DNA of 64,000 bases from Subtercola boreus (lineage in GTDB: Bacteria > Actinomycetota > Actinomycetes > Actinomycetales > Microbacteriaceae), in NCBI RefSeq assembly GCF_003399625.1, contig NZ_NBXA01000003.1:1-64000 (forward strand), read 5' to 3'. Of this stretch, positions 5,888 through 59,161 are shown piece after piece (the stretch's first letter is position 1; every line of letters starts with the position of its first letter). Made by a program: the position numbers and the translations under genes. The notes below the pieces were generated by a model, which did no database searches, was not told the origin of the DNA, and saw nothing but the letters and a program-made list of their open reading frames with translations.

Positions 5888-5928
5888 GCAGCCCGCGGCC
5901 CGCAGGCGCAGGACGGTTGCCGGCTCGC

Positions 5929-6210: not shown

Positions 6211-6807
6211 GTGAATGCCACCACCCTTGCGCTCGTCCGTCACGGTGAGACCGACTGGAACGCCGAACGCCGCATCCAGGGCCGGTCGGATGTTCCCCTG
6301 AACGACACCGGCCGCGCCCAGGTCCGGGCGACCGCACGGCTGCTCCAGGACGAGGAGTGGGACTTCGTGGTCTGCTCACCGCTCTCCCGCGCCCGGGAGA
6401 GCGCCGAGATCATCGCCGGCGAACTCGGGCTCACGGTCACCAGCCAGATTCCCGAGTTGGTCGAACGGCACTACGGGCGGGCCGAGGGCATGCAGGACGG
6501 CGACGAACTGCGGGCGCTCCGCATCCCGGGCGGCTTCCTCGAGGCTGAGACCGAGGAGGAGGTCGCCGCCCGGGCATCCCTCGCCCTCCGCGGGGTCGTG
6601 AACGCCAACCCCGGATCCCGCATCATCGTCGTCGCGCACGGAACGCTCATCCGGCTCACCCTCTCCGCCCTCAGCGGCGGCCCGGTCGGCAGCATCTCCA
6701 ATGCCGGGCACTGCGTCATCCACCACGTGCTGGGCGACGACGACGGGGTGGAGTGGTCGCTCTCCGTCGTGAACGGTGCGGCCTGGCCGGTACCCGAGCC
6801 CGCCTGA
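6211..6807 (+). CDS. Histidine phosphatase family protein (phosphoglycerate mutase-like)
   Basis: 198 residues with the family signature LVRHGETDWNAERR at residues 7-20, in which His10 is the predicted phospho-acceptor. The second catalytic histidine is in VVAHGTLIRL near residue 145, and the acid/base Glu lies in ELVERHYG near 86. The QGRSDVPLN segment is typical of broad-specificity or cofactor-dependent mutase-like phosphatases. The substrate cannot be read from sequence. The start is GTG with a weak ribosome site. It converges on the anti-sigma gene with only 15 bp between stops. Confidence 0.85.
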   Translation: MNATTLALVRHGETDWNAERRIQGRSDVPLNDTGRAQVRATARLLQDEEWDFVVCSPLSRARESAEIIAGELGLTVTSQIPELVERHYGRAEGMQDGDELRALRIPGGFLEAETEEEVAARASLALRGVVNANPGSRIIVVAHGTLIRLTLSALSGGPVGSISNAGHCVIHHVLGDDDGVEWSLSVVNGAAWPVPEPA

Positions 6808-6822
6808 GCGACCTCCCGCGGA

Positions 6823-7545: not shown

Positions 7546-8042
7546 CTCGTCACCCCCTTCTCCTGCAGGGAGAGCCTGACCGCCCGGAGGGCATAGTGCA
7601 ACCGGGACTTGACCGTGCCCTCGGGGATGTCGAGCAGTTCGCTGAGTTCGGCGATCGACTTCTGGCCGTAGAACGAGTGCACCAGAACCTCCCGGTGCGG
7701 CTGGGAGAGTCCGCTGATCGCCTCCGAGACGAGCCAAACCTCCAGGACGGCGTCTGTGTGGTCGGCGGATGCCCGTTCCGGCAGGGTGTCGGTGCCGATC
7801 TCGTTGCGCGACCGCGCACTCCGCCAGTCGTCGATCACCAGGTTGCGCGCCACCGTGAACAGCCACGACTGCGGGGACTTCTCGTTCTGCAGCACCCGGG
7901 GGTTCCGCCAGGCCCGGAACAGCGTCTCCTGCACAACATCTTCGGCGAGCTGGCGGTCGTTCGTCAGGCGCACGACGAAGCGCAGCAGAGCGGGGGCGTG
8001 CTGGTCGTGGAGTTCGCGGAGGAGCAGAGCCTGATCATCCAT
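7542..8042 (-). CDS. ECF-family RNA polymerase sigma factor
   Basis: 166 residues. Sigma region 2 is seen as RLTNDRQLAEDVVQETLFRA, followed by WRN and the core-binding VARNLVIDDWRS; region 4 ends in a helix-turn-helix (SIAELSELLDIPEGTVKSRL). GGAGGTGCGGCC precedes the chosen ATG; longer frames upstream run through the promoter and are rejected. It is co-transcribed with the anti-sigma gene. Upstream, a TGAAC-N17-CGTA motif is mirrored by the same motif facing the Rieske gene, so the sigma factor probably controls itself and the divergent Rieske/DUF2231 pair. It resembles the SigK/SigL-type ECF factors of actinobacteria. Confidence 0.88.
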   Translation of the reverse strand: MDDQALLLRELHDQHAPALLRFVVRLTNDRQLAEDVVQETLFRAWRNPRVLQNEKSPQSWLFTVARNLVIDDWRSARSRNEIGTDTLPERASADHTDAVLEVWLVSEAISGLSQPHREVLVHSFYGQKSIAELSELLDIPEGTVKSRLHYALRAVRLSLQEKGVTR

Positions 8043-8077
8043 GGCCGCACCTCCCCTCTCACTCTGGCACTGTTGTA

Positions 8078-8103
8078 TACGAGACGCCGGAGCGAAAAGT
8101 TCA
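8078..8103 (-). promoter_or_regulatory. Predicted ECF promoter of the sigma/anti-sigma operon
   Basis: On the minus strand TGAAC (8103-8099), 17 bases and CGTA (8081-8078). It matches the motif and spacing of the divergent promoter at 8112-8137. Start of transcription would fall about 30 nt before the sigma ATG. Confidence 0.6.
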
Positions 8104-8111
8104 TTCTGGGG

Positions 8112-8137
8112 TGAACTTCCTGCGGGGCGTTCTCGTA
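8112..8137 (+). promoter_or_regulatory. Predicted ECF promoter of the Rieske/DUF2231 operon
   Basis: TGAAC (8112-8116), 17 bases and CGTA (8134-8137), with TT after the first box and TCT before the second, as in the promoter facing the other way. The two -35 boxes are only 8 bp apart. Confidence 0.6.
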
Positions 8138-8202
8138 GGTACGGGTAGCAGTATCTCAAGTCAGCCTTGTCGGGCAGATCCGGCAGTACCAGAAGGAGCA
8201 TC

Positions 8203-8700
8203 ATGACCGAGAACCAGACCGTCACCCGCCGCGTCATCCTCACCGCCGGAACCACCGGGCTGGTCGGCGCCAGCACCCTTCTGCTCGCCGCCTGCAGCAC
8301 CGGCGGGGCAGACACTGCCGCGCCCGCGGCCAGCAGCGCTGCGACAGGATCGGCGACCGGTTCTGCGACGGCACCGAGTGGTGCGTCATCCGGTGCCGCT
8401 GCGGCGAGCGGAGCGGAGATCGCGAAACTCGCCGACGTGCCCGTGGGCCAGGCGACCAGCGTCACGTTCGATGGGCAGGAACTCCTGGTGGCCCAGCCGA
8501 CCGCAGGCACTGTGGTCGCCTTCAGCTCGGTCTGTCCGCACCAGGGCTGCGCCGTGGCGTTCGCGAAGACCGACTTCGCATGCCCCTGCCACGGCTCCAC
8601 CTTCGAGCTCGCCACCGGCGATGTCACGCACGGGCCTGCCCAGAAGGGCCTCACCGCGGTGAAGGTCGCCGTGTCGGGAGACACCATCGTGGCGGCCTGA
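8203..8700 (+). CDS. Rieske [2Fe-2S] lipoprotein
   Basis: 165 residues. The N-terminus has a Tat-like TRRVIL motif and a lipobox ending LLAAC (Cys about 31), followed by an Ala/Ser/Gly/Thr linker. The Rieske fold carries CPHQGC (about residue 111) and CPCHGS (about 127), the paired Cys-His ligands of a 2Fe-2S cluster. It is thus a membrane-tethered redox protein outside the cytoplasm, not part of a cytochrome bc complex as judged by context. AAGGAG lies before the chosen ATG. The DUF2231 membrane protein follows after 52 bp, and the divergent ECF sigma factor probably drives both. Confidence 0.88.
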   Translation: MTENQTVTRRVILTAGTTGLVGASTLLLAACSTGGADTAAPAASSAATGSATGSATAPSGASSGAAAASGAEIAKLADVPVGQATSVTFDGQELLVAQPTAGTVVAFSSVCPHQGCAVAFAKTDFACPCHGSTFELATGDVTHGPAQKGLTAVKVAVSGDTIVAA

Positions 8701-8752
8701 CGCCTCTCGCTCCCCCCTTTAGCCCCCTCGCACGTCGACAGAAAGCTGCCGC

Positions 8753-9415
8753 ATGTTCAACGGACTCCCCCTCCACATCCTGCTGGTGCACGTGGTTGTC
8801 ATCGTGCTGCCCGCCGCCGCCCTCCTGACCGTGCTCGGAGCACTCTGGCCGGCGTTCCGCCGGAAACTCGGCGTGCTCACGCCGATCGTCGCCCTCGTCG
8901 GACTCATCAGCGTGCCACTGGCGACCAACGCCGGCGAGTGGCTCGAGGAGCGGCTGAACTCGACGCCGCTCATCCAGGCCCACGTCGCGCTCGGTGACAC
9001 CCTGCTGCCGTGGGCGGTCGGCCAGTTCGTGCTGGCCACCGCCATCTGGGTCTGGTACCGCTGGTTCGCGTCGGCAGGTGCCGCGGGCAACCTTGTTCCG
9101 GCGGGCTTCGGCGCGCCGGGTCCGGTGGCTGGCGGCGCCAGCGATCAACGCGCCACCGACGGCTCCGTGCTGCTGCACGGCGATGATCCTTTCGACCCTG
9201 CGACCGGCGCCGGACGCGCCACCCCGGGCATCCGCCCCACCGCACCCCCGCGCGCACGGGCAGGCCGCAGGGCATCGATCGTCGTCTCGATCGTCTTCAT
9301 CGTGCTCGCCCTCGGCGTCTCGACGGGCACCGTGTTCAAGGTCGTGCAGATCGGTGAGTCCGGCTCGAACGCTGTCTGGCAGGGTTCGTTCAGCCCCGAC
9401 CCCGTCGAGGGCTGA
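8753..9415 (+). CDS. DUF2231-family membrane protein
   Basis: 220 residues with four predicted membrane helices (about 7-29, 36-56, 79-101 and 170-193). The N-terminal LPLHILLVHVVVIVLP stretch, with two His residues inside the first helix, is typical of DUF2231. A long hydrophilic Ala/Gly/Pro-rich loop separates helices 3 and 4. Family function is not established; intramembrane His residues would suit haem or metal binding, which is inference. It is co-directional with the Rieske lipoprotein, making a two-gene redox unit under the predicted ECF promoter. Confidence 0.8.
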   Translation: MFNGLPLHILLVHVVVIVLPAAALLTVLGALWPAFRRKLGVLTPIVALVGLISVPLATNAGEWLEERLNSTPLIQAHVALGDTLLPWAVGQFVLATAIWVWYRWFASAGAAGNLVPAGFGAPGPVAGGASDQRATDGSVLLHGDDPFDPATGAGRATPGIRPTAPPRARAGRRASIVVSIVFIVLALGVSTGTVFKVVQIGESGSNAVWQGSFSPDPVEG

Positions 9416-45184: not shown

Positions 45185-47677
45185 CTACGCGTGAGCGCTC
45201 TGCAGGTCGTCGATCAGGCGGTCGCCGGGGACGGCCGGAACCATGGTCGCCTCGATGTCGGCGCGCTCGAGCAGCTCGTCCATGCGGCGGCGACGCGACT
45301 TCGAGATGAGCGTCACGACGGTGCCCTGCTTGCCCGCGCGGCCCGTGCGGCCCGAACGGTGCAGGTAGGTCTTGTACTCGTCGGGAGCATCGGCCTGGAT
45401 GACCAGGTTGATGTCGTCGACGTGGATGCCGCGGGCTGCGACATCCGTCGCCACGAGCACGTTGACCCGGCCGCTGGTGAGCAGCTGGAGGTTCCGCGTG
45501 CGGCGCGACTGGTTGAGGTCGCCGTGCAGCGACGTGGACGGGATGCCCGCGTCGTCCAGCTGGTCGGCCAGCTCTTCGGCGAACGCACGGGTGCGGGCGA
45601 AGATCAGCGTCTTGCCCTCGCCCGACGCGAGCTGCTCGATGATCGCCCGCTTGTCGCGCTGTTCGATGAGCAGAACGCGGTGATCGATCGTGGAGGAGGC
45701 CTGGTCTTCACCGGCGACCTCGTGCACGGCCGGCTCGACGAGGAACTCGTTCACCAGCTGCGCGACACCCTTGTCGAGGGTGGCCGAGAAGAGCAGTTTC
45801 TGGCTCTTGGGCGCGGTCTGGCGGAGGATCCGCTGCACGGGCTCGAGGAATCCGAGGTCGCACATGTGGTCGGCCTCGTCGAGAACGACGATCTTCACCT
45901 GCGAGATGTCGAGGCGGCCCTGTTCGATGAGGTCCTCGAGGCGACCGGGGGTCGCGATGATGATGTCGGTGCCGCGCTGCAGCGCCGAGACCTGCTTGAA
46001 CTGGGGCACGCCACCGAAGATCGGGGTGGTGAACAGACCGACCGAGCGGGCAATGGGCTGCACGGTGCGGTCGATCTGCATCGCGAGCTCACGCGTCGGG
46101 GCCAGGATGAGGGCGCGCGGGAGACGACCGGGCTTCCGGCCCTTGGCTCCGTCGTTCTCCATCAGGCGCTCGACCAGGGGTGCGCCGAAGGCGATCGTCT
46201 TACCCGAGCCGGTCTTGCCGCGGCCGAGAACATCCTTGCCGGCGAGAACGTCGGGGATGGTCGCTGCCTGGATTGGGAACGGGCTCGGAGCACCCATCGA
46301 CGCGAGCTGGCGCTGGATGTTGTCACCGAGGCCGAGGTCGCCGAACGTCTTGTCGACGACGTCGCTGGCGGTGGTGACTTCGGCTTCGAGGCGCTCGAGC
46401 ACGACGTCGTCGCCGGCACCGAAGCGGCCCGCTGCTGCGGTTCCCGCTCCGTCGCTGTAACCGGTGTTCTCGCGCTTCGGGTAGAAGTCGCTGCCGCGGG
46501 CGGCGCGGTCGGTGTTGGAGTCGCGGCGGTCCTCGAACGAACGCGCAGGACGGTCGCTGTAGGCCGGACGCTCGGTGCGGGCCGGACGGTCGCCGTAACT
46601 CCGTCGCTCCGTGCGGGCCGGGCGCTCGGAGCGCTCGGGACGGTCGCCGTAGGTGGGGCGCTCGGGGCGGCCGGCACGCTCGGTGTAGCTCGGGCGCTCG
46701 CTCCGCTCCGGGCGGTCGCCGTACGACGGACGGCCGGTGGATGCGCCGCGGTCGCCGTAGCTCGGACGCTCGGTGCGCGCACCACGGTCGGGACGGTCGC
46801 CGTACGCGGGGCGCTCGGTGCGTGCCGGGCGGTCGCCATACGCGGGGCGCTCGGTGCGTGCCGGGCGGTCGCCATACGCGGGGCGCTCGGTGCGTGCCGG
46901 GCGGTCGCCATACGCGGGGCGCTCGGTGCGTGCCGGGCGGTCGCCATACGAGGGACGGCCCGAGGATGCACCGCGGTCACCGTAGCTCGGACGCTCCGTG
47001 CGGCCGGCACCGGAGGCGTTGCGGTCACCGTATGACGGGCGCTCGCTGCGCTCCGGACGGTCACCATACGACGGACGGCCCGTGGATGCACCGCGGTCGC
47101 CGTAGCTCGGACGCTCGGTGCGGGCACCACGGTCGGGACGGTCGCCGTAGGAGGGGCGGTCGTTGCTCCGCGCGGGGCGGTCACCGTACGAGGGGCGGTC
47201 GCTCCGGCCGGCACCGGATGAGTTGCGGTCACCGTAGCTCGGACGCTCGGTGCGCGCACCGCGGTCGGGACGGTCTCCGTACGACGGGCGGTCGCTGCGG
47301 CCGGCGCCGGACGGATTGCGGTCGCCGTAGGAGGGGCGACCGGTCGAGGCGCCACGGTCGGGGCGGTCGCCGTAGGAGGGGCGACCGGTCGAGGCGCCAC
47401 GGTCGGGGCGGTCGCCGTACGACGGGCGGGATCCGCGGTCGCTGTAGTTCGACTCACGGCTCGGGGCTGCGGCGCGGGGCTCCCAGTTGGGGCGCTCGGC
47501 GCGGTTCGTCGGGGCGGCGCCGCGGGCGGCACGCTCATCGGGGCTCCAGCGGGCCTTCTTTGACGCTCCCGCGTCAACGCTCTGGTGGCCGCGGTGGCCG
47601 GCACTCCGCGCTCCGGGAGCGCTCTTCGGGCCGAACTTGTTGCCGCCGGTGGAGGATTTCTTCGAGTAATCGGGCAT
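45185..47677 (-). CDS. DEAD-box RNA helicase with long YGDR-repeat N-terminal region
   Basis: 830 residues. The N-terminal ~400 are disordered: from about residue 75 they consist of some twenty YGDR units in blocks such as RPSYGDRPDRGA and RPAYGDRPARTE. The helicase core follows with the Q motif (FPIQAATIPDVLAGKDVLGR), GKTGSGKT, LDEADHMCDLGF, a SAT motif (LLFSATLDKG) and HRSGRTGRAGKQG. It ends soon after the core (ADIEATMVPAVPGDRLIDDL onward). Such Arg/Tyr/Gly tails in RNA helicases bind RNA and favour condensates; cold-shock mRNA unwinding is likely. GGAAAG precedes the ATG at 47677. Confidence 0.88.
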   Translation of the reverse strand: MPDYSKKSSTGGNKFGPKSAPGARSAGHRGHQSVDAGASKKARWSPDERAARGAAPTNRAERPNWEPRAAAPSRESNYSDRGSRPSYGDRPDRGASTGRPSYGDRPDRGASTGRPSYGDRNPSGAGRSDRPSYGDRPDRGARTERPSYGDRNSSGAGRSDRPSYGDRPARSNDRPSYGDRPDRGARTERPSYGDRGASTGRPSYGDRPERSERPSYGDRNASGAGRTERPSYGDRGASSGRPSYGDRPARTERPAYGDRPARTERPAYGDRPARTERPAYGDRPARTERPAYGDRPDRGARTERPSYGDRGASTGRPSYGDRPERSERPSYTERAGRPERPTYGDRPERSERPARTERRSYGDRPARTERPAYSDRPARSFEDRRDSNTDRAARGSDFYPKRENTGYSDGAGTAAAGRFGAGDDVVLERLEAEVTTASDVVDKTFGDLGLGDNIQRQLASMGAPSPFPIQAATIPDVLAGKDVLGRGKTGSGKTIAFGAPLVERLMENDGAKGRKPGRLPRALILAPTRELAMQIDRTVQPIARSVGLFTTPIFGGVPQFKQVSALQRGTDIIIATPGRLEDLIEQGRLDISQVKIVVLDEADHMCDLGFLEPVQRILRQTAPKSQKLLFSATLDKGVAQLVNEFLVEPAVHEVAGEDQASSTIDHRVLLIEQRDKRAIIEQLASGEGKTLIFARTRAFAEELADQLDDAGIPSTSLHGDLNQSRRTRNLQLLTSGRVNVLVATDVAARGIHVDDINLVIQADAPDEYKTYLHRSGRTGRAGKQGTVVTLISKSRRRRMDELLERADIEATMVPAVPGDRLIDDLQSAHA
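46534..47440. repeat. In-frame tandem repeats encoding YGDR blocks
   Basis: Imperfect 27- to 39-bp units; the cleanest stretch (about 46798-46942) is four consecutive nearly identical 36-bp units encoding YGDRPARTERPA. This is coding minisatellite DNA, prone to copy-number change. Confidence 0.8.
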
Positions 47678-48033
47678 GATGCTTTCCGGGTTTTTTAATT
47701 TGCATGGCAAAGCGGTCAATACATTTGCGATTGACTTTTGCTGAACCCGGGCAGTCTTTGGCCGGGGCCGTTTCACATACGTGATTGTTCCCGCCCCGCG
47801 CCTTCACACCCGTGCACACGTTCGTGCGGTGTTGTTGCGCTTGTGCACTCCTGCACGACGCATCCATATTGCGCCCTGCCAAACCAGCGGGAAACGCTGG
47901 TGCACGAAACGAGAAACCGGCCCACCTGACTTACAAACCCATCCGCGCACGACGCGCGGTGTCAAGAGCCGACCTTTATACGCTACACGGTCGGCCCCCG
48001 ATTGTCACGAACCACAGGTTTCGTGCGTGCGTG
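47678..48033. other. Intergenic region: helicase promoter/leader and downstream hairpin of yhgE
   Basis: On the minus strand TTGACC lies about 50 bp before the helicase ATG, followed by an AT-rich run (GCAAATTAAAAAACC); TATGTG further up is another possible -10 box. Near the other end GCCGACC (47968-47974) and GGTCGGC (47989-47995) form a hairpin after the YhgE stop. No gene is supported. Confidence 0.45.
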
Positions 48034-50049
48034 TCAGGTAGCGAGCCCGGGCCGCGAAGTGCCGGATGCTCCGGCGGCAGCCGGCCCTGCGTGCTCGGTC
48101 TGCCGCGCCGCGCGCCGCGAGCCGGTCTCCCGCGCCGGCGACCCCACAAGCAGCCAGCCGGTGCGTTCGGGCCGCCGCCGCCTTGCGAGGGCCGCTCCTG
48201 CGAACAGCAGGCTGAGCAGGAGCAGGATGGCAAGCACGGCGACGCTCCCCCACACCGTTCCAGCAGAACCGCCTGCCAGGATGCCCTGCATGCCCGAGAC
48301 GGCATACGCCAGCGGCGAGACGCTGCTGATGAACTGGAACGGCCCCGACAGGATCTCGACCGGATAGATGCCGGCCGTCGTCGCGATCTGCAGAGCGAAC
48401 AGAATGAGCGAGATGACCGAGCCGACCCGGCCGAAAGCCGCCCTCAGGAACTGGTGGAACGCCGTGAAGGCGAGTGCGACCAGCAACGCGAAGCCGAGCG
48501 TCGCGGGCAACGAGGACCATGGCGCAGCCAGGCTGAACTGCAGGTAGGCCACAACGACCACCGCCTGGAGCGCCGCGAACAGCGACGCCCGGCCGAAGAT
48601 GCGCAGCACGAGCCGGCCCGTCGAGGCCGAGCTCGCGAGCAGCGACATCCGCAGTGGGCGGAGCAGCAGGAAGATTGCGAGGGCCCCGATCCAGAGCCCG
48701 GCGGGAAGGATCAGGATGGCGATGACGCTGCCGATCCCGCCTTCGCTGTTCAGCGTCGTCACGTTCACCGCGATCGGGTCGGCCGCGACCTTGGCGGAGG
48801 CCGCCGGATCCGTCGCGGCGCTCTTGGTGAGCGCATCCGCCCCCGTTTGGAGACCCGAGGCGAGCGTGGTGGCGCCGGTGGCGAGCTGGCCGGCACCCGC
48901 GGCGGACTGCTGGGCTCCCGTGGCGAGCTGCGCGACACCGTCGGAGAGCTGGGAAGCGCCGTCCCTCAGCTGGCCGGAGCCGGAGGAGAGCTGGGAGGCG
49001 CCGGAGTCGAGCTGCGAGATGCCGCCCTGCAGGGCATCCAGACCCGACGACGTCTCTGCCGCAAGCGTCGAGCCACCCGACGCGGCCTGACTGAGCCCGC
49101 CGGAGAGCTTCGCGTAGGTTCCGAGAAGCTGCGCCTTCGAACCGGCATCGAGGGTCGGGTTCGAACTGATCGCGAAGTCGAGCCCGGCCTTCAGCGAACT
49201 GAAGCCCCCGGCAAGCGTCGAGACACCGTCGGTGTAGGTGCTGACACCGTCGGAGAGTTGCGAGAGCTGGCCGGCCTGGTCGTCGAGCGTCGAGACACCG
49301 CTGGCGAGCGAGTCGACTCCTCCGGTGTACTGGCCGATACCCGAGCTGAGCGTCGAGGCGCCGGATGCCGCACCCGACGCTCCCGTGGCGAGCTGGTTCA
49401 GCCCGTCGGTGAGACTCGAGGCTCCTGTGCCGAGCTGCGTGGCGCCGTTCGCGGCGGTCGACAGCTGGGTGCCGACCGTTCCGAGCCCGGAGTACACCCC
49501 GGTCAGCACCTGCGTGGTGATCGTCTGGCCGAAGCCGGCCTTCAGGGCGGAACCGACGGTGCTCGCGACCACGCCCGCGAGGTAGCCGTGCGAGTCATCG
49601 GTCTGGATGTCGATCGATCCCTGTGCGGGAGCGGGCGTGCCGAGCGTGTTGATCTGGGCGGAGAAGTTCTCGGGGATGGTCAGCACCGCGTAGAACGTGC
49701 CGTCGGCCAGGCCCTTGGCGGCGTCTGCGCTGTTGGTCACGTTCCAGTCGAAACCGGTCTGGTCGGGCCCGGTGAGAGCGGTGACCAGGCCTCGGCCCGC
49801 ATAGACCGTGGACTGGGTGCCGTCGGCAGCGGTCGTCGTGAGCAGCTTGTCGTTGTTGACCACCGCGGCCGGCACCTTGTTCAGGTTGTCGGAGACGTTC
49901 GAGAACGCACCGGAGAAGAGCGCATTCGCCGCGAGCGGGATCACGATGACGGCGATGGCGGCCACGGCGAACCACCACCTGCCGCGGCGTCGGTGGGAAT
50001 GCACGGGTGCTGCCTCTGCGGCAGGAGCGGCAGTGTTCTGGATGCTCAT
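48034..50049 (-). CDS. YhgE/Pip-family membrane protein
   Basis: 671 residues. An N-terminal helix (about 27-47) leads a long extracytoplasmic domain packed with heptad-like small-residue repeats (LATGASGAASGAST, QLSSGSGQLRDGASQLSDGV), and five to six helices form the C-terminus (about 440-640). This is the YhgE/Pip architecture, related to phage-infection protein Pip and to ESX-linked or lipid-exporting systems. Its ATG overlaps the stop of the MMPL-ATPase-like fusion gene, so the two products are probably made in fixed ratio and may work as one envelope exporter. Confidence 0.87.
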   Translation of the reverse strand: MSIQNTAAPAAEAAPVHSHRRRGRWWFAVAAIAVIVIPLAANALFSGAFSNVSDNLNKVPAAVVNNDKLLTTTAADGTQSTVYAGRGLVTALTGPDQTGFDWNVTNSADAAKGLADGTFYAVLTIPENFSAQINTLGTPAPAQGSIDIQTDDSHGYLAGVVASTVGSALKAGFGQTITTQVLTGVYSGLGTVGTQLSTAANGATQLGTGASSLTDGLNQLATGASGAASGASTLSSGIGQYTGGVDSLASGVSTLDDQAGQLSQLSDGVSTYTDGVSTLAGGFSSLKAGLDFAISSNPTLDAGSKAQLLGTYAKLSGGLSQAASGGSTLAAETSSGLDALQGGISQLDSGASQLSSGSGQLRDGASQLSDGVAQLATGAQQSAAGAGQLATGATTLASGLQTGADALTKSAATDPAASAKVAADPIAVNVTTLNSEGGIGSVIAILILPAGLWIGALAIFLLLRPLRMSLLASSASTGRLVLRIFGRASLFAALQAVVVVAYLQFSLAAPWSSLPATLGFALLVALAFTAFHQFLRAAFGRVGSVISLILFALQIATTAGIYPVEILSGPFQFISSVSPLAYAVSGMQGILAGGSAGTVWGSVAVLAILLLLSLLFAGAALARRRRPERTGWLLVGSPARETGSRRAARQTEHAGPAAAGASGTSRPGLAT

Positions 50050-53000
50050 CGGAGGACCCCTTCAGGACGGGCGGGAGTGGAGAGTTCGAGGGTGACCAGC
50101 GGCCGGGCGGAGGCTGAGGCCGTGATCGAGCCGGCGGCAGCCTGCCGCGCCGCGCCGAACTCCGGCACTGCGGGAAGACCGAGCACGAGCGTCATGCCGG
50201 CGGGCACAAGGTCGGCCAGGGCATCCACGAAGCCCCCGGTGTCAGCCAGCGGCGACCCCGCATCGCCCGTGTCGAGCACCAGCACCGCGCCACCGTCGGC
50301 GAGACCCAGCGCGGTGAGCACCAGCGCCGTCGCGAGCGGCGTGAGCGAACCGAGGGCGGTGTCAGCCGAGAGCGGCGGCTCGCCGGGGAACCGCGAGAGC
50401 ACCCTGTCGATGTCGGCGACACGGCGTTCGATCTCGGATGTCGACGCTCCGCGCCGGAACAGCGGCCGGGCGTAACGGATGCGATCACCGAGCGCCGAGC
50501 CGACGGAGGTCGAGGCATCCGTCCGCCCCGAGGCGAGATCGACAAGGGTCACGCACCGGCTGAGGGCGCCGGCCTCGGATGGCACGGTGAACCCGAGCAC
50601 CTGCAGCTCGCCGGACTCGGGAACGAGGCGCCCCGCCAGCGTTGCGCCGACCAGGCGGCGTGACGTGGTGTCGCCGGCGAGAACCAGGATCGAGCCCTCG
50701 GTGAGCGAGAGCTCGATCGTGTTCTCGACCCCTCCGATGCGGAGGTCTTCGGCAGAGACGATGTCGTCGGTGTGACGGGACGCCCAGGCCGCACTCGAGA
50801 TGTGTTCGCGAAGACCCTCGCCCTCGACATCCACATTCGGCAGGATGCGGGACAGCGCCCGCGGCAGCTTCCACGCCGTGGCGCCGAGCAGTGTCATCAC
50901 GGCCGGAACGAGCGTCATCCGCACCAGGAACGCATCGACGAAGACACCGACGGCCAGCGCGAGCGCGATCTGTTTGATGGCGCCGGTGCCCTCGGGCACG
51001 AAGGCGAAGAACACGAAGAACATGATGAGCGCGGCAGCCGTGACCACCCGGGCTCCCTGCACGAAGCCGACCCGGATGGCGCGGCGGGCGTCCTTCGTCT
51101 TCACGAACTCCTCCCGCATGCCCGAGACGAGGAACACCTCGTAGTCCATGGCGAGCCCGAAGAGGATCGCCATCAGCAGAATGGGCAGGAAGCTGATGAG
51201 CGGGCCCGTTGTCGCGATGTTCAGCAGATCGGCACCCCAGCCCCACTGGAAGACGGCGACGGTCACCCCGAAGCTCGCACCCACAGAGAAGAGGAAGCCG
51301 ACGGCCGCCTTGATCGGCACCGCGATCGAGCGGAACACCATGGCCAGCAGCACGATCGAGAGACCGACCACGAGGATGCCGAACGGCAGCAGGGCGGCGG
51401 TGAGCAGGTCGGAGATGTCCACGGCGACGGCCGTCTGCCCCGTGACGGCAATGGGTGTGCCGAGATCGGCCGTGATCTTGTCGTTCACCGCCCGGAGATC
51501 GTGCACGAGTGTCTTGGTCTCGGGCGAGTCGGGAGCGGTCGTCGGGATGACCTGGAAGATCGCGGTGTCGACGGTGGGATCCGGGATGCCCTGCCCGACG
51601 ACAGCAACCCCGGGAACGGTGCGCAGCTCGTCGCCGATCTTGGTGAGCACACCCTGGATGTCGGTGGACTGCGTGATGTCGGCCACCACGATGAGCGGGC
51701 CGTTGAAACCGGGGCCGAAGCCCTCGGCGAGCAGATCGTAGGCCTGGCGGTTCGTCGTGTCGGCGGGCTGCTGGCCGGAGGTCGGCAGGTTCAGGTCGAG
51801 GCTGAAGGCAGGGATGGCGGCGACGCCGACCAGCCCGCACACGACAATGATGAACACGATCGGCGCTTTCATGACGAGGCCCACCCAGCGGGCACCCATC
51901 GAGCGCGAGACCGGTTTGGTGCCGGATTTCGCGCGGGCGGCATGGGCTCCGGCGTGCACCGGCGCAGCCGGGTCTGCCGCGTCGACGACCGGGGCGGCGT
52001 GGTGGGCGGGGTGGGCATCCGGAGCACCCGCACCCAGGCCTGCGATCGTGACCGGCTCGTCGTGTTCCAGCGCCGCGAGCGCACGGCGTTCGACCCGGGA
52101 GCCGCTCTTGGGCCTCAGCCGGTTCTTCGCGAGGCCCATGATGGCCGGCAGGAGGGTTGCCGCGATGCAGACCGAGATGAAGACGGCGAAGGCGGCGGCG
52201 ACCCCCATGACACTGAGGAACGGGATGCCGACGACGAGCAGACCGAGCAGGGCGATGATCACGGTCGTGCCCGCGAAGACCACCGCACTGCCCGCGGTCG
52301 CGACCGCCTGCGCAGCCGATTCCTCGGGCTCCTGGCCCTGGGCGAGCTGCGTTCGATGCCGCGAGAGGATGAACAGGGCGTAGTCGATCCCGACCGCGAG
52401 TCCGATCATCACGGCCAGGAGCGGCGCCGTGCTCGAGATGGAGGCGAACGCCGTCGAGGCGGTGACGGCGCCGATCGAGATGCCGACACCGATGATCGCC
52501 GAGAGCAGCGGCAGCCCGGCGGCGAGCAGGGAGCCGAAGGTGATGAAGAGCACCACGGCGGCGAACAGCACACCGAGACCCTCCGATGGCGAGATGCCGA
52601 CAGTGTTGTCCTGGAAGACCTGGCCGCCGAATTCGACCCGGATGCCCGCATCGGACGCCAGCGCGCGGGTGGCCTGCACGGCATCCGTCGTCGAGGCCGG
52701 AATGTCGACGGTCGGCCCGTCGAACGACACCGAGGCGTAGGCGATCGTCTTGTCGGCGGAGATCGCGTTGGTGGCGTACTGGGAGTAGGGCGTGACGACC
52801 GAACTGACGTGCGGGATCTTCGCGAGCGCATCCGTCACGGCCGTGATGGCCGCCTGGTCGGCAGGGTCGGTGACCGTCTGGCCCGCCGGCACCTGGAACA
52901 CCACCTGCGCGCTCGATCCGGCGACGGCTGGGAACACCGCGTCGAGCTTGTCGAGAGTCTGCTGGGACTCGGTTCCCGGGATGCTGAACCCCTCGTCGTA

Positions 53001-53120
53001 GCTGCCGCCGAGAGCGACTCCGCCGCCGAGGATCCCGGCGAGCAGCAGGAACCACACCACGATCACCTGCCAGGGATGACGGAACGAGAAGCGTCCGATG
53101 CGGTACAGAAGAGTTGCCAT
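50046..53120 (-). CDS. MMPL-family transporter fused to a degenerate ABC-ATPase-like domain
   Basis: 1024 residues. Residues 1-760 form a complete MMPL/RND exporter with two sets of helices and two periplasmic loops (QVTDPADQA-like loop 1; loop 2 after 440). A His/Ala/Pro-rich linker lies near 345-400. From about 785 the protein resembles an ABC ATPase: LAGDTTSRRLVGATLAGRLV then ESGELQVLGF, and GGAVLVLDTGDAG. But Walker A is lost (G816 DTTS R821 R822 L823 where G-K-S/T is needed) and Asp950 of Walker B is followed by Thr, not Glu. It cannot be a normal ATPase. AGGAG precedes the ATG; TetR is 11 bp upstream and yhgE overlaps downstream. Confidence 0.85.
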   Translation of the reverse strand: MATLLYRIGRFSFRHPWQVIVVWFLLLAGILGGGVALGGSYDEGFSIPGTESQQTLDKLDAVFPAVAGSSAQVVFQVPAGQTVTDPADQAAITAVTDALAKIPHVSSVVTPYSQYATNAISADKTIAYASVSFDGPTVDIPASTTDAVQATRALASDAGIRVEFGGQVFQDNTVGISPSEGLGVLFAAVVLFITFGSLLAAGLPLLSAIIGVGISIGAVTASTAFASISSTAPLLAVMIGLAVGIDYALFILSRHRTQLAQGQEPEESAAQAVATAGSAVVFAGTTVIIALLGLLVVGIPFLSVMGVAAAFAVFISVCIAATLLPAIMGLAKNRLRPKSGSRVERRALAALEHDEPVTIAGLGAGAPDAHPAHHAAPVVDAADPAAPVHAGAHAARAKSGTKPVSRSMGARWVGLVMKAPIVFIIVVCGLVGVAAIPAFSLDLNLPTSGQQPADTTNRQAYDLLAEGFGPGFNGPLIVVADITQSTDIQGVLTKIGDELRTVPGVAVVGQGIPDPTVDTAIFQVIPTTAPDSPETKTLVHDLRAVNDKITADLGTPIAVTGQTAVAVDISDLLTAALLPFGILVVGLSIVLLAMVFRSIAVPIKAAVGFLFSVGASFGVTVAVFQWGWGADLLNIATTGPLISFLPILLMAILFGLAMDYEVFLVSGMREEFVKTKDARRAIRVGFVQGARVVTAAALIMFFVFFAFVPEGTGAIKQIALALAVGVFVDAFLVRMTLVPAVMTLLGATAWKLPRALSRILPNVDVEGEGLREHISSAAWASRHTDDIVSAEDLRIGGVENTIELSLTEGSILVLAGDTTSRRLVGATLAGRLVPESGELQVLGFTVPSEAGALSRCVTLVDLASGRTDASTSVGSALGDRIRYARPLFRRGASTSEIERRVADIDRVLSRFPGEPPLSADTALGSLTPLATALVLTALGLADGGAVLVLDTGDAGSPLADTGGFVDALADLVPAGMTLVLGLPAVPEFGAARQAAAGSITASASARPLVTLELSTPARPEGVLR

Positions 53121-53131
53121 GGTGCGGACTC

Positions 53132-53731
53132 CTAGAGCGTGACGGCCGGGGCGGCGAGGGGGACGAGAAGTTCGGCGACGACGGCGACCAGGGCCGCGCG
53201 GGCCTCTTCGATGGGGGCCAGGTCGGTCGACGGCATCGCGACTCCGGTCGCGACCACGTAGGCGGCACCGGCCAGAGCGACGCCGAGCCGGATACGCTGC
53301 TCGGGTGTCGCCAACTCGTTGACGAACGAGTCGCTCAGCCTGCGCAGAAAGTCGTTGGCACGATCGACGATCGGGATACCCGCCAGCGACTGGCCCTGGT
53401 TGATGATGATGTGGGCCTCGAGGCCGTGCACCAGCAGGAAATCGATGAAGTCCTCGACGAAAGTGCCCCGCAGTTCGGCGTCGGCGATGCGGCCGATCGA
53501 GCCCTGGAAGAGACCGTCGAGTTTGACGACGGCAGGGGTGAGCGCCTCTTCGAGCAGCGCCTCCTTCGATGCGAAGTGGTACAGCACGCTCGACTTCGAG
53601 TAGCCGGCGGCGTCGGCGATCTGCTGGAGAGACGCCCCCGCATAGCTCGTCTCGACGAACAGTCGGAGCGCGACGGCCTTCAGTTCTTCCGAAGGATCGG
53701 GCCGGGGGGAGGAGGGAGATGCCACGGGCAC
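53132..53731 (-). CDS. TetR-family transcriptional regulator
   Basis: 199 residues from the chosen GTG. The N-terminal helix-turn-helix reads SLQQIADAAGYSKSSVLYHF (about 34-53), canonical for TetR; the ligand-binding helices follow. Three GTG codons could start it (53764, 53731, 53725); the second has AGG at a suitable distance. A TGACCG-CT-CGGTCA palindrome lies right before it and within the longer version. The gene begins the TetR-MMPL-yhgE group, just after the RND gene, so autoregulation of the downstream half is likely. Confidence 0.85.
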   Translation of the reverse strand: MPVASPSSPRPDPSEELKAVALRLFVETSYAGASLQQIADAAGYSKSSVLYHFASKEALLEEALTPAVVKLDGLFQGSIGRIADAELRGTFVEDFIDFLLVHGLEAHIIINQGQSLAGIPIVDRANDFLRRLSDSFVNELATPEQRIRLGVALAGAAYVVATGVAMPSTDLAPIEEARAALVAVVAELLVPLAAPAVTL

Positions 53732-53739
53732 GAGCTTAC

Positions 53740-53755
53740 CTGACCGCTCGGTCAG
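53740..53755. promoter_or_regulatory. Palindromic TetR-type operator
   Basis: CTGACCG-CT-CGGTCAG is a perfect 7-bp inverted repeat. A further half-site CGGTCAG lies 19 bp away (53768-53774), overlapping the stop codon of the RND gene. Confidence 0.55.
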
Positions 53756-53770
53756 CTCCTGCACGATCGG

Positions 53771-56700
53771 TCAGGTCTCCGGGGTGTTCACAGGCTGGGC
53801 GGCCGCGGCTGTGAGTTCACGCACCGGGCCGAGCTCGGTGCGTCGTTCGGCGAACCGCTGCTCCCGGCGCTGCTGCCGTCGCTCGAGGCGCCCCATCACC
53901 ACGTTGTAGAGCACGGGCAGCACGATGAGCGTCAGGATCGTCGACGAGACGAGCCCGCCGATCACCACGATAGCGAGCGGCTGCGAGATGAAGCCGCCGT
54001 GCCCGGTCAACCCGATCGCCATCGGCAGCAGCGCGAAGATGGTCGCGAGCGCCGTCATCAGAATCGGCCGGAGCCTCCGCACGGCGCCCTGCACCAACGC
54101 CTCGCGAACAGGCAGACCCCTCCCCCGGTACTGGTTCACCAGGTCGACGAGCACGATGGCGTTCGTCACCACGATGCCGATCAGCATCAGCACGCCGATG
54201 ATCGAGGGAACCCCCAGCGGGATACCCGAGATCACCTGCAGCGCGATCGCCCCGGTTGCCGCGAACGGCACCGACACCAGCAGCAGGAGCGGCTGCAGAA
54301 GGCTCTTGAACGTCGCCACCATGACGACGTAGACGATCAGGATCGCCACGAGGAGCGCAATGCCGAGCTGCCCGAAGGCGTCGCTCTGGTTGGAGGTCGC
54401 CCCGCCGAGCTTCGCGGTCGCCCCGGCGGGCAGCTCGACGGCATCCACGGCCTTCTGCACTTCGGCGCTGGCCGAGCCGAGGTTGTCACTGGATGGCGTC
54501 GCCGTGATGCTCGCCGTCCGGAGGCCCCGCGACGTGGTGATGGTGTCGGGGCCGTTCACCTGGGAGACGGTCGCGAGCGAGTCGAGCCGCACGGGCCCGG
54601 TCGCGGTCGGCACCTCGAGCGCCGCGAGGTCGGCCTGGGTGGCCGGGGTGCTGTCGCTGGCGATGTAGATCGTGTACTGGGTGCTGTCGATCACGATCGA
54701 TCCGACGGTCTGCGGCTGCATGGCATTCGCGACGAGAGATCCGACGGCGACCTCGCTGAGGCCGGCCTCGACTGCCTTCGTGCGGTCCACGGCCACGGCG
54801 ATGTAGGGCCGGGTGGCTGCCAGGTTCGATGAGCTCTGCGTGATGCCGTCGAGATCCTTGACCGAGGCGAGCACCGCGTCGGCCGCGGCCTGCAGGTCGG
54901 TCTGGTTCGTGGCCGAGACGTCGACCGTGATGTCCGAGGAGCCTCCGAATCCGGCCGACGCGGCGACCGAGATGGCGCCGGCGTCGGGAATGGCGGCGAG
55001 GTCCGTCCGCACGGTGTTCTGCAGGTCATCCTGGTTCACGGAGTCGTCGGTGGTGATCGAATACGTGATGGCATTGCCGCCGCCGCCCACGAAGGCATCG
55101 CGAAGGCTCGAGCCGCTCGAACCGATCGAGGCCTGCACGGTCTGGATGCCCGCGATGCCGCGAAGGGCCGCCTCGACCTTCTGCGCCGACGCGTCCTGCA
55201 CGTCGAGGCTCGCACCGACCGGCACGGTCTGGGTGACGGTGAGCGTGTTCTGGCCGCTCGAACCGAGGAAGTTGGTCTTCATGAACGGCACCAGCGCGAT
55301 CGTGCCGCCGAGCACGAGCACCGCGATGATGAGGGTGACGAACGAGTGCTTCAGCGTCCACGTGATGATCGGCAGGTAGCGCCGCTGCAGGGCGCCGGGC
55401 GCTTCGTCCTCGATGACGTTCTGCGCACGGCGGGCGCGGCGGCCGGGCAGCGCGGCCCCGGCGACGGCGAGCGTGTCCCGCACGGGGCGGCCGGCCACCG
55501 TGTCGCGGGTGCCCTGTACATCCGGAGCCTGCTTGCGCTGCCGCCGGCTCACCCGGTGCGAGCTGCCGAGGAACCAGTACGCGAGCACCGGCACGATCGT
55601 GAGCGCGACGAACAGCGAGGCGAGCAGCGCGATCGTCACCGTGAGCGCGAACGGCCGGAACAGCTCGCCCGTCGTGCCCTGCACGAACGAGATCGGCAGG
55701 AAGACAGCGACCGTCGTGATCGTCGAGGCGGTGATGGCCGTCGCGACCTCGCGCACCGCCTCGATGATGACCTCCGACCGGGTCGCACCGTCGATCGGCC
55801 CCGAGCCTTCCGCCTGGCCCAGGTGCCGCTTGATGTTCTCGATCACGACGATCGAGTCGTCGACGACCCGGCCGATCGCGATCGTCAGCGCACCGAGGGT
55901 CAGGATGTTCAGCGAGTAGTTCGCCGTCTGCAGCCCGATGAACGTGATGAGCACCGAGGTCGGGATCGAGATCGCGGTCACGATCGTCGACCGCACCGAC
56001 ATCAGGAAGATCAGGATGATCACCACGGCGAAGAACAGGCCGAGCAGGCCCTCCGTGGCGAGCGATTCGATCGACTGCTGGATGAACGGGGCCTGGTCGA
56101 ACACGACAGTGAAGGTTGCGCCGGGCAGTGCCGCCTGCAGCTGAGGGATGATGTCCTGCACGCCCTTCGACACGTCGACCGTGTTCGCGGCGGGCAGCTT
56201 CGTCACGGCGATGGTGAGGGCGGGCTCACTGTTCACCCGGGAGATGGATGTCACGGGGTTGTCGACCAGCGCCACCGTCGCCACATCGCCGATCGAGTAC
56301 ACGCCCCCGCCCGGCTTGGCCGCCGGGAGCGGGAGGGCCGCGATGTCGGCGGTCGACGCCAGCTTCGAGCCGGCCTGCACCGAGAGCGTGGATCCGTTCT
56401 CCGTCAGCGACCCGGCGGGCAGGAGCGTGCCGTTCGATGCCACCGCCGTCTTGAGGGCCGCCTGGGTGAGTCCCGCCTCGGCCAGCTTGGCACTGTCGGG
56501 CGTGATCGTGACGCGCTGCCCGGGGTCGCCGACGAGCTGCGCCGCGCGCACCCCCGCCACCTGCTCGATGTCGGTGAGGGTGGAGGCCCGGAGGGACGCC
56601 GCGAGCGCCTTCGTGTCGCCGCCGGTGCCGCCGGTGACCGCGATCTGGATGACCGGCAGGTCTCCGATGCTGCCACTCAGCACCTGCGGGTCGACGGTGT

Positions 56701-57064
56701 CGGGCAGTGTCGACTTCACCCGGTTGATCGCCTGCGAGATCTTCTGCTCGGCGTTCGCGAGGTTCGTGCCGTAGACGAAGGTCGCATTGACGATCGAGAG
56801 GTTGGTACTGGATGTCGCGGAGGTCGTGTCGATGCCCTCGACGCCCTGCACGGCCTGCTCGATCGGCGTCGAAACGTCATCGTTGACCACCTCGGGCGAC
56901 GCGCCGGGATAGTTGGTGAGGATCACCAGCTGCGGGAAGTCGATCGACGGGATCAGTTCCTGCTTCAGGCTGGTGAGGGCCAGCCCGCCGAAGACCGCCG
57001 CCACGATCGTCACGAGGGCGATCAGGGCCCGGTTCTTCATGCTCAACACTGCGAGGAGATGCAT
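53771..57064 (-). CDS. RND efflux pump permease (AcrB/HAE1-like)
   Basis: 1097 residues with the AcrB plan: an N-terminal helix, a large porter loop (about 35-330), six helices, a second loop and six helices. Helix 4 holds GRVVDDSIVVIENI near residue 402, with the two Asp residues of the proton relay. The porter domains carry repeated NATFVYGTNLANAEQ-like elements typical of HAE1. A long basic intracellular linker (HRVSRRQRKQAP onward) lies between the halves. No membrane-fusion protein or outer channel is encoded nearby, as expected for a Gram-positive. The gene is 18 bp downstream of an MMPL gene and 39 bp upstream of the chosen TetR start. Confidence 0.88.
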   Translation of the reverse strand: MHLLAVLSMKNRALIALVTIVAAVFGGLALTSLKQELIPSIDFPQLVILTNYPGASPEVVNDDVSTPIEQAVQGVEGIDTTSATSSTNLSIVNATFVYGTNLANAEQKISQAINRVKSTLPDTVDPQVLSGSIGDLPVIQIAVTGGTGGDTKALAASLRASTLTDIEQVAGVRAAQLVGDPGQRVTITPDSAKLAEAGLTQAALKTAVASNGTLLPAGSLTENGSTLSVQAGSKLASTADIAALPLPAAKPGGGVYSIGDVATVALVDNPVTSISRVNSEPALTIAVTKLPAANTVDVSKGVQDIIPQLQAALPGATFTVVFDQAPFIQQSIESLATEGLLGLFFAVVIILIFLMSVRSTIVTAISIPTSVLITFIGLQTANYSLNILTLGALTIAIGRVVDDSIVVIENIKRHLGQAEGSGPIDGATRSEVIIEAVREVATAITASTITTVAVFLPISFVQGTTGELFRPFALTVTIALLASLFVALTIVPVLAYWFLGSSHRVSRRQRKQAPDVQGTRDTVAGRPVRDTLAVAGAALPGRRARRAQNVIEDEAPGALQRRYLPIITWTLKHSFVTLIIAVLVLGGTIALVPFMKTNFLGSSGQNTLTVTQTVPVGASLDVQDASAQKVEAALRGIAGIQTVQASIGSSGSSLRDAFVGGGGNAITYSITTDDSVNQDDLQNTVRTDLAAIPDAGAISVAASAGFGGSSDITVDVSATNQTDLQAAADAVLASVKDLDGITQSSSNLAATRPYIAVAVDRTKAVEAGLSEVAVGSLVANAMQPQTVGSIVIDSTQYTIYIASDSTPATQADLAALEVPTATGPVRLDSLATVSQVNGPDTITTSRGLRTASITATPSSDNLGSASAEVQKAVDAVELPAGATAKLGGATSNQSDAFGQLGIALLVAILIVYVVMVATFKSLLQPLLLLVSVPFAATGAIALQVISGIPLGVPSIIGVLMLIGIVVTNAIVLVDLVNQYRGRGLPVREALVQGAVRRLRPILMTALATIFALLPMAIGLTGHGGFISQPLAIVVIGGLVSSTILTLIVLPVLYNVVMGRLERRQQRREQRFAERRTELGPVRELTAAAAQPVNTPET

Positions 57065-57082
57065 GCTCTCAGTGTCGCACTT

Positions 57083-59161
57083 CTACGGTGTGTCGAAGAC
57101 GCGGGTGGCCGCCTTGATGCCAGCCGGCCGCGACGGCAGCCAGAACCGGTCGCCGGTCACGAACACCAGTGCCGGCACCAGCACCGTGCGCACGAGCAGG
57201 GTGTCGAGCAGCACACCGATGCCCACGATGACGCCGATCTGGGTGAGGGCGATGATCGGCAGCACGCTCAGCACCGCGAAAACCGCCGCCAGCAGGATGC
57301 CGGCGCTGGTGATCACGCCACCTGTCGCCGAGAGGGCGTGGATCATCCCGGGCCTCGTACCCAGCAGCCCGGCCTCCTCCCGCGCCCTCGTCACAAGGAA
57401 GATGTTGTAGTCCACCCCGAGCGCGACGAGGAACAGGAAGCTGAACAGCACCACATTCGTGTCGAAGGCGGGAATGTGGAAGACCGTCTTGAACACCAGG
57501 TTCGCCGCGCCCAGGCTCGCGAAGTAGCTCGCGACCACGGTGACGATCAGCAGCACCGGCGCCACAAGGGCCCGCAGCAGAACGAGCAGCACCACGAACA
57601 CGATCGCCAGGATGATCGGGATGATCAGGGCCTCGTCGTGGGCCGAAGCGGTCTTCTCATCCAGCGCCGTGGCGTCCGTGCCGCCGACCAGTGCCGCACG
57701 GGCGCCGTCGTCCGCATCCGCATAGGCGGCCCGCAGATCGGTGATCGTCTGGAACGCGGCATCCGACTGCGGCTCCGCAGCCAGCGTCACGCTGAGCTGC
57801 GTGATGGTTCCGGCGGCCGCGCCCACGGTGACGGCATCGACCCCGGGCGTCTGGGTGGCGATGCGCTGGGCGCTCTTCAGGGCATCCGTCGGCGTGATGA
57901 CGACCGTCTGGGCGCTCTGGCCCGCGGGGAACGCCTGGTCGATGACCGCCTGGCCCTGGGCCGATTCGGGGTTGCCCCGGAACTGCTGCACCTGCGAGAG
58001 CCCGACGCTGAGGTTCAGGGCGCCGAGCGCGAGCGCGCCGAGCACCACCACGCTGCCGATCACCACGATCACCGGCCGCCGTGAGACCCCGCGGCCGAGC
58101 TTCGACCAGAAGCCGTGCTCGGTGGGCGACTCGGAGCCGAACGTCGGCACGAACGGCCAGAACAGCCCGCGTCCGAAGATGACGAGCGCGGCGGGCAACA
58201 CCAGCAGCGCGAAGATCATCGCCGTGACGATACCGATCGCGCAGGCGAAACCGAGCGCCCGGTTGCCGGAGAGCTCCGCGAACAGGAGCGTCAGGAGGCT
58301 CAGCGTGACCGTGCTGCCGCTCGCGAGCACGGCGGGCCCCGCCCCGCGGAGCGCCTGGGACATCGCCACCCTCCGGCTCTCGTGCCGCCGCAGTTCCTCC
58401 CGGTAGCGAGCGATGAGCAGCAGGGCGTAGTTCGTGCCCGCTCCGAAGACGAGAACAGAGAGGATGCCCGAGATCGACGCGTCGATGGTGAACCCGAACA
58501 CGTTCGCGAGCTGCTTCACGAGGATGCCTGCCAGGCCGTCGGCGAGCCCGATCACGGCCAGGGGCACCAGCCAGAGCCACGGGCTCCGGTAGGTGATCAG
58601 CAGCAGCACGGCCACCACGATCACGGTCACGAGCAGCAGCCGGAAGTCGGCACCCTGGAATGCGGCGGCGACATCGGCCTGGAATCCTTCGGGCCCGGTG
58701 ACGAAGGCGTTCAGCCCCTCGGGGAGGTCGGTCTTCGCGGTGGCCCGGAGGTCGGCGACCCGGGTTCCCTGGGCTTCACTGTCGGTCGCGGCAGGCAACG
58801 GAAGGGGCAGCAGGGCGGCGGTTCCGTCGTCTGAGTACTGCGCCGGCGGCAGCTGGCCGCTGAGCGACTCAGGCGCGAGAGCCGCACCACGTGCCGCGAT
58901 CGCGGTCCGGTCGGCATCGGTGAGGGCCGCGCCGCCGCGGTCGAACACGACCAGCGCGAACCCGGCGTCGGAGTTCGGCAGCTGCTTCGCCAGCTCGGCG
59001 ACCTGGGCTGACTGGGTACTGGCGGGGAGTCCGGCGGTCGGGGCGACACTGCCGGTGCTCGCCGGTGCGGTGGCGAACAGAATGCCCGCTGCGACGATCG
59101 CCAGCGCGAGAACGATCCACGCGGTGAACTTTCCGCTGACGAAATCGGTGAGGTGGCGCAT
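57083..59161 (-). CDS. MMPL-family transporter
   Basis: 692 residues, about twelve helices in two halves. Conserved features: FGAGTNYALLLIARYREELRR near 240 and, in the second half, VALGVDYNIFLVTRAREEAG near 585, the GxDY/GxNY motif of MMPL proton relays. MMPL proteins move lipids or hydrophobic compounds to the cell surface. It is the first gene of the minus-strand efflux cluster; the MarR regulator is divergent with about 63 bp between start codons, so MarR probably controls it. Confidence 0.87.
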   Translation of the reverse strand: MRHLTDFVSGKFTAWIVLALAIVAAGILFATAPASTGSVAPTAGLPASTQSAQVAELAKQLPNSDAGFALVVFDRGGAALTDADRTAIAARGAALAPESLSGQLPPAQYSDDGTAALLPLPLPAATDSEAQGTRVADLRATAKTDLPEGLNAFVTGPEGFQADVAAAFQGADFRLLLVTVIVVAVLLLITYRSPWLWLVPLAVIGLADGLAGILVKQLANVFGFTIDASISGILSVLVFGAGTNYALLLIARYREELRRHESRRVAMSQALRGAGPAVLASGSTVTLSLLTLLFAELSGNRALGFACAIGIVTAMIFALLVLPAALVIFGRGLFWPFVPTFGSESPTEHGFWSKLGRGVSRRPVIVVIGSVVVLGALALGALNLSVGLSQVQQFRGNPESAQGQAVIDQAFPAGQSAQTVVITPTDALKSAQRIATQTPGVDAVTVGAAAGTITQLSVTLAAEPQSDAAFQTITDLRAAYADADDGARAALVGGTDATALDEKTASAHDEALIIPIILAIVFVVLLVLLRALVAPVLLIVTVVASYFASLGAANLVFKTVFHIPAFDTNVVLFSFLFLVALGVDYNIFLVTRAREEAGLLGTRPGMIHALSATGGVITSAGILLAAVFAVLSVLPIIALTQIGVIVGIGVLLDTLLVRTVLVPALVFVTGDRFWLPSRPAGIKAATRVFDTP

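Follow-up and report, generated by a model that had tools for sequence, protein, structure and literature searches.

Proteins of the YhgE/Pip (phage infection protein) family are common and, to our knowledge, their mechanism and energy source are unknown. The closest described partnership of exporters is the one for phthiocerol dimycocerosate (PDIM), the export of which requires, according to excerpts of PMC11539658, both the resistance-nodulation-division (RND) pump MmpL7 and DrrABC, an ATP-binding cassette (ABC) transporter of the ABC-2 type. The same excerpts report that the DrrA change DE165-166AA, which we read as affecting the Walker B pair, seemingly leaves PDIM export unaffected, and that M145A in DrrA and R121A in DrrB each abolish it. 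Here we describe a locus of Subtercola boreus, found in a window of 64,000 nucleotides (positions 1 to 64,000 of contig NZ_NBXA01000003.1; "the window" is this whole stretch), where an MMPL family exporter is fused to a degenerate ABC-ATPase-like nucleotide-binding domain (pseudo-NBD) and is followed by a YhgE gene. In the explanation that we prefer, and hold with about even confidence, a proton-driven MMPL pump is tied to YhgE through the pseudo-NBD, gained by gene fusion, so that one pump type may be hitched to another.

The fusion protein is encoded at positions 50046-53120 (-) by a single open reading frame (ORF) with an ATG start and has 1024 residues (Pfam MMPL, 1e-84). Its MMPL part, residues 1-765 (50826-53120, (-)), matches Pfam MMPL in two stretches with 284.8 bits against a cut-off of 20.5. 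The C-terminal domain, below called the tail, comprises residues 780-1024 (50049-50783, (-)), is ordered from approximately 785 to 1012, and is assigned from a fold model and profiles. The best named match to the last 270 residues is a Subtercola boreus record with 86% identity. The 3' neighbour at 48034-50049 (-) is a YhgE/Pip protein, an ABC-2-type permease, which passes the cut-offs of both NCBIfam models (TIGR03061, 126.8 bits, cut-off 96.15; TIGR03062, 141.9 bits, cut-off 102.2) and matches Pfam ABC2_membrane_3 at 9.6e-20. The two genes share four bases, ATGA, and the tail is thus encoded directly upstream of YhgE.

The MMPL part is thought to be a pump driven by the proton gradient. It contains two Asp-Tyr pairs, D246-Y247 (GIDYALF) and D659-Y660 (AMDYEVF), which correspond to the proton relay of MmpL3. 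Both pairs are invariant in 28 fused proteins of alignment A6 and occur in 89 out of 89 MMPL proteins, 84 with a tail and five without, the outgroup at 57083-59161 being excluded.

To characterise the tail we used structure prediction, fold comparison and profile searches. The AlphaFold2 model of the tail has a mean predicted local distance difference test score (pLDDT) of 90.3 and a predicted TM-score (pTM) of 0.88. For the full-length protein the model is less confident (pLDDT 77.1, pTM 0.68), and residues 352-404 fall below a pLDDT of 50. With the tail model Foldseek returns 1102 matches at E<=0.001, headed by FtsE and CbiO, and the best 50 of the 1102 are all ABC proteins as far as they are described. 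In the VIA comparison the best match is an ABC ATP-binding protein (Z 17.4, root mean square deviation 3.4, 203 residues), and 997 of 998 chains have Z>=8. A PDB profile search built from 62 fused tails only has EcfA as its best match (4.6e-6), with the 60 matches listed being ABC proteins, and a profile of 20 rows including two free-standing relatives has CbiO as its best (1.5e-10). The tail sequence alone finds EcfA2 at an E of 0.48, a hint only. The predicted structure thus confirms the ABC-ATPase (NBD) fold, and a non-ABC fold is ruled out by the PDB profile matches, Foldseek and VIA. The sequence-only reading of this DNA had described an MMPL exporter with an attached ABC-ATPase-like domain that no longer has its catalytic residues, and had pointed to structure prediction and fold search of residues 780-1024 as the way to check it; ORF, Pfam, fold model and alignments all agree with that description.

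The family models of Pfam and NCBIfam are blind to this domain. With the tail of the fusion alone, Pfam and NCBIfam yield no family, and none of the 62 fused tails of alignment A5 matches Pfam ABC_tran (PF00005) at E<=0.01; the fused protein of locus L064 reaches 20.4 bits, below the cut-off of 25. Routine annotation therefore likely misses the fused domain. Lone Pfam matches of single tails to PaaX-like and fvmX2 models were taken as chance.

The residues of ATP hydrolysis were counted in one alignment of 115 fused, 70 free-standing and 6 canonical ABC proteins, and a full residue recount confirmed the zeros. In this set, which also served for the domain tree, identical sequences were merged, which reduced 207 to 192; matches shorter than 140 residues were excluded, a fused gene with a broken frame (L196) was left uncounted, and just two reduced tails from the order level (L064 and L065) are included. 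In the fusion, the Walker A equivalent is GDTTSRRL (residues 816-823; 50652-50675, (-)), a shortened P-loop with R-R at the place of the K-T or R-T of the free relatives, as in 98 of the 115 fused proteins. The Walker lysine is present in 6/6 canonical, 22/70 free (Arg in 45, Gln in 3) and 0/115 fused proteins (Arg in 106), so that 67 of the 70 free proteins have Lys or Arg there. The glycine of the P-loop GxxG is found in 6/6 canonical and 64/70 free proteins and in only 4/115 fused ones, with a gap in 108. Replacement of the Walker lysine by arginine, mostly as GSGRT, is the commonest state of the free proteins (e.g. L151-L153, L157-L160 and L220-L222), which is unusual for so large a group of ABC-like proteins.

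The remaining catalytic features are absent from free and fused proteins alike. The catalytic glutamate and the switch histidine are each found in 6/6 canonical, 0/70 free and 0/115 fused proteins, for the histidine even when two residues on each side are allowed. The signature SGG[QE] is found in 0/70 free and 0/115 fused proteins, the canonical control having it at these columns in merely 4/6; the fusion has SLTPLA at this position. The Walker B aspartate is the only tested ATP-hydrolysis residue left in the tail: it is present in 6/6 canonical, 61/70 free and 106/115 fused proteins (Glu in six more), and in the fusion it lies in LVLDTGD (residues 947-953; 50262-50282, (-)), where threonine replaces the catalytic glutamate.

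The placement of the motifs given in the sequence-only reading, GDTTSRRL as Walker A and LDTGD as Walker B, is borne out, as free relatives have GSGKT and VDD at the aligned positions. That reading had named homologues with an intact P-loop as a sign of misalignment. Such homologues do exist (the free L061, L058 and L190, and the fused L258, which lies outside the counted set and keeps PCGKS and VDD), but the free GSGKT sequences align at the same place, so that misalignment is ruled out and the placement strengthened. Loss of catalysis, likewise, is right for the fusion but is not a trait of being fused, as the free relatives lack the same features. Because glutamate, histidine and signature are absent there too, the simplest order of events is that the free family had already lost catalysis when the fusion arose. 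Judged from the alignment, the nucleotide pocket would most simply have been lost in the fused line afterwards.

The free relatives also indicate what the tail was before it was fused. A phmmer search with the tail alone finds free proteins at loci L061 (1e-7) and L058 (1e-6). In all 23 family loci that were fetched (L058, L061, L150-L169 and L189), out of 30 short-frame matches listed in the family search, the free homologue stands directly upstream of YhgE. Starting instead from YhgE, 24 of 30 loci of the class have a member of this NBD family upstream, five have none and L241 has a weak match that was not counted; these 30 are the best matches, a few of them from the family and order of the window. 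Eight of nine free proteins in one set exceed the Pfam ABC_tran cut-off, and in a second set L061 passes and L058 (19.8 bits) fails. An intermediate, i.e. an MMPL gene beside a free NBD, was found neither among L150-L169, L189, L058 and L061 nor, for the free loci of the series L190-L248, within flanks of 1.5 kb. Because the free homologues occupy the same position ahead of YhgE, we read the tail as the NBD partner of YhgE joined to an MMPL pump.

The fusion of MMPL and pseudo-NBD is not peculiar to this genome but is spread over the order. In 80/80 loci kept from a search at the junction the tail is in frame with MMPL sequence, as expected because the search pattern sits at the junction. YhgE lies beside the fusion in 78 of these loci, both misses being contig ends, and a TetR gene lies upstream in 76, the remaining four beginning inside the MMPL gene. 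This, together with the purifying selection on the tail described below, indicates that the fusion is not due to chance. An assembly or frame artefact is ruled out, as the same fusion occurs in many independent genomes. In 299 genomes of the family, the 150 matches listed comprise 114 frames of at least 900 residues, 30 of at most 360 and six between, frame length being used as a proxy for fusion; the tally of 299/299 genomes at E<=0.001 is uninformative, since the profile also catches ordinary ABC ATPases. At the order level the tail profile is found at 1e-20 in 43 of 248 genomes.

An MMPL-based search of 119 genomes gave a C-terminal extension of the pseudo-NBD type, 180-275 residues long, in 25 of the 30 best loci, the window included, and these span seven families of the order. 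The extension of L264 was judged by alignment, its tail not being reported by the profile. With flanks of 1.5 kb and counts that ignore relatedness, YhgE adjoins 24 of the 25 MMPL loci with a tail vs none of the five without. This co-occurrence, together with the position of the free homologues, makes a scaffold role for the adjacent YhgE, one of the suggestions of the sequence-only reading, likely.

Some further loci were observed in these searches. The genome of the window carries a paralogous pair of MMPL::pseudo-NBD fusion and YhgE (L068, G000:C26:154000-170000, 4116-9355 (-)), where the P-loop is eroded differently (GADVAGAA) and a long linker precedes the tail. Fused genes with broken frames are found in L101, on the chromosome of Cryobacterium breve, where the MMPL frame is the broken one, and in L196; these are pseudogenes or sequencing errors. 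A search of plasmids with YhgE turned up 14 records, all with partial matches that cover 26-39% of the query.

A FastTree phylogeny of 192 domains gathers the fused tails, with L196 among them, into a single group with a local support of 0.925, next to the free proteins (0.781). In the tree of the MMPL parts, built with every fourth of L070-L149 and cores of at least 600 residues, the fused proteins again form one group (0.941), which also contains L275 and L279, two proteins without a tail. These two group with L258 (0.958), but the placement is poorly supported (0.081). The trees are most simply read as a single fusion followed by erosion and by one loss of the tail; two fusions are a possible, less simple alternative.

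The explanation proposed at the outset may be detailed as follows. A gene fusion would have supplied an MMPL (RND-type) exporter with the NBD subunit that belonged to an ABC-2 transporter of the YhgE type. The tail would lie on the cytoplasmic side, as NBDs do, and would still bind YhgE, thereby holding pump and permease in one complex. Such a complex would be powered by the proton gradient through its MMPL part and not by ATP, and YhgE would offer the shared substrate, which may be a lipid or another hydrophobic compound of the envelope, either an additional route across the membrane or an extracytoplasmic scaffold. We also put forward a bolder and rather doubtful possibility, namely a class of hybrid transporters where a proton-driven RND pump takes over from ATP hydrolysis in powering an ABC-2-type permease. 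The dead NBD, non-catalytic even in its free form, would then serve solely as mechanical coupling, and MMPL and YhgE would act as a single machine in a large part of one actinomycete order.

Several observations weigh against tying the tail to YhgE. YhgE occurs without such an NBD in five of the 30 loci of the class (six with the weak L241), and the third YhgE of this genome (L249, G000:C3:104000-118000, approximately 5501-8686 (+)) has no NBD of the tail family within its 14-kb stretch and a weakly TetR-like frame directly upstream. The linkage count of 24/25 vs 0/5 is uncorrected for relatedness. Locus L273 (genome G352) has a tail, yet YhgE is absent from its flank and TIGR03061 finds no match in its genome at E<=0.001; it is either a real exception or a case of divergent YhgE. 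Many tails at the order level are reduced, without most of the helical subdomain, and YhgE is still adjacent. In ABC exporters this subdomain helps to seat the permease, and the seat between tail and YhgE may therefore not be the classical one. The tail is kept under purifying selection that is looser than in the MMPL part: the ratio of nonsynonymous to synonymous substitution rates (dN/dS) over eight within-genus comparisons is 0.25-0.41 for the tail vs 0.01-0.22 for two MMPL segments, and higher for the tail in every comparison. Finally, the former nucleotide site shows only a weak excess of conservation, with p = 0.075, 0.15 and 0.019 for the top 15, 20 and 25 positions. For the tail alignment we excluded loci truncated by contig ends or with a tail shorter than 200 residues, and used 61 of the 77 remaining tails; after thinning of A5 from 62 to 54 sequences, tail position 42 is Arg in 54/54 and position 171 is Asp or Glu in 54/54. 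Our guess is that a salt bridge between these arginines and the Walker B aspartate fills the empty nucleotide pocket.

Some of the same observations would fit a passive tail that only stabilises the MMPL pump or helps it to dimerise, with YhgE an independent protein of the operon. The fold is retained while the active site is lost, one YhgE of the same genome and those of 5-6 of 30 loci lack an NBD of this kind, and L273 has a tail in a genome without a YhgE detectable by TIGR03061. However, the free homologues of the tail adjoin YhgE and not MMPL within the flanks examined, and among the MMPL loci the tail tracks YhgE, so that we find this account unlikely, though worth keeping in mind. The tail could also be a decaying relic without function, kept since the fusion could not be reversed. 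Its erosion appears stepwise, from GSGKT or GSGRT in the free proteins to R-R in the fused and on to tails without most of the helical subdomain, its dN/dS exceeds that of the MMPL part, and the tailless L275 and L279 are nested in the fused group. A relic is nevertheless hard to reconcile with a dN/dS of only 0.25-0.41, a confident and compact predicted fold, the conservation of R42 and of Asp or Glu at 171, and persistence of the tail in seven families; we consider it quite improbable.

Two further accounts give nucleotides or ATPases a larger role, and we give little credence to either. The sequence-only reading had suggested a nucleotide sensor, here an ATP/ADP sensor gating the proton-driven pump. 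Most free relatives do have a P-loop by their GxxG and Lys or Arg, and the fused L258 retains PCGKS. In this protein a sensor is unlikely because the P-loop glycines and the lysine are gone; 108 of the 115 fused proteins, among them the one described here, have a shortened loop, the Walker lysine is absent from all 115, and no tail of A5 matches ABC_tran, with L064 remaining below the cut-off. Alternatively, YhgE could still be driven by a canonical ATPase encoded elsewhere, and the pseudo-NBD could be the inactive counterpart of that ATPase in a hetero-NBD pair. Pairs of a degenerate and an active NBD occur in ABC exporters and offer a precedent, and the genome has 124 matches to ABC_tran. 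Against this very improbable arrangement, Pfam ABC_tran is found in 0/5 genes of the cluster (canonical ATPases near related loci were not searched for), and the free family is without the catalytic residues throughout.

The fusion is part of a cluster of five co-directional genes with tiny gaps (48034-59161, (-)), in the order MMPL, AcrB-type RND, TetR, MMPL::pseudo-NBD and YhgE, i.e. three RND-type pumps in an apparent single operon. The TetR-family regulator at 53132-53764 (-) (Pfam TetR_N, 2.1e-13) lies upstream of the fusion with a gap of 11 bases. The AcrB-type gene also precedes TetR at most of the other Subtercola loci and at L052. The second MMPL pump (57083-59161, (-), 692 residues) has Asn-Tyr (GAGTNYALLL) where the first Asp-Tyr pair is expected, and its second half retains the aspartate in VDYNIF. 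Beyond the cluster, 45185-47776 (-) encodes a protein resembling DEAD-box helicases, the N-terminal portion of which has a long series of RPSYGDR-type repeats.

In the open full-text literature, judged by title and the start of the abstract, we found nothing that deals with a fusion of MMPL and NBD or with YhgE accompanied by an NBD of this kind; excerpts of PMC12584985 place a YhgE gene among recombination hotspots. The parts are of known kinds, and their combination, spread and order of losses appear undescribed in the literature covered. The fusion suggests that an RND pump may drive, or cooperate with, at least some permeases of the ABC-2 type. If true, it would also be a clear example from nature of a pseudo-NBD that is retained for coupling.

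Compared with the MMPL family RND exporters such as MmpL3 and MmpL7 (PF03176), the fusion shares the MMPL matches in both halves and the two Asp-Tyr pairs. MmpL3 is its best NCBIfam match, yet far below the cut-off (213.3 vs 1400 bits), and the fusion differs in its C-terminal pseudo-NBD and in adjoining YhgE. The downstream gene is a full YhgE/Pip member by TIGR03061 and TIGR03062, whereas the third copy of the genome and some other YhgE loci lack such an NBD. The free NBDs next to YhgE/Pip in Actinomycetes, for which we found no family name, are homologous to the tail, stand directly upstream of YhgE and equally lack the catalytic glutamate, the switch histidine and the signature; they differ in being unfused and in mostly keeping the P-loop, with Lys (22/70) or Arg (45/70) at the Walker position. 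DrrABC with MmpL7 differs in consisting of separate polypeptides and in that DrrA has an unusual signature motif and reported ATP binding; the authors class it as a type V ABC exporter, in excerpts that make no mention of YhgE (PMC11539658). The DrrABC-MmpL7 system resembles our locus in that, according to the same excerpts, an RND/MMPL pump and an ABC-2-type transporter serve one lipid.

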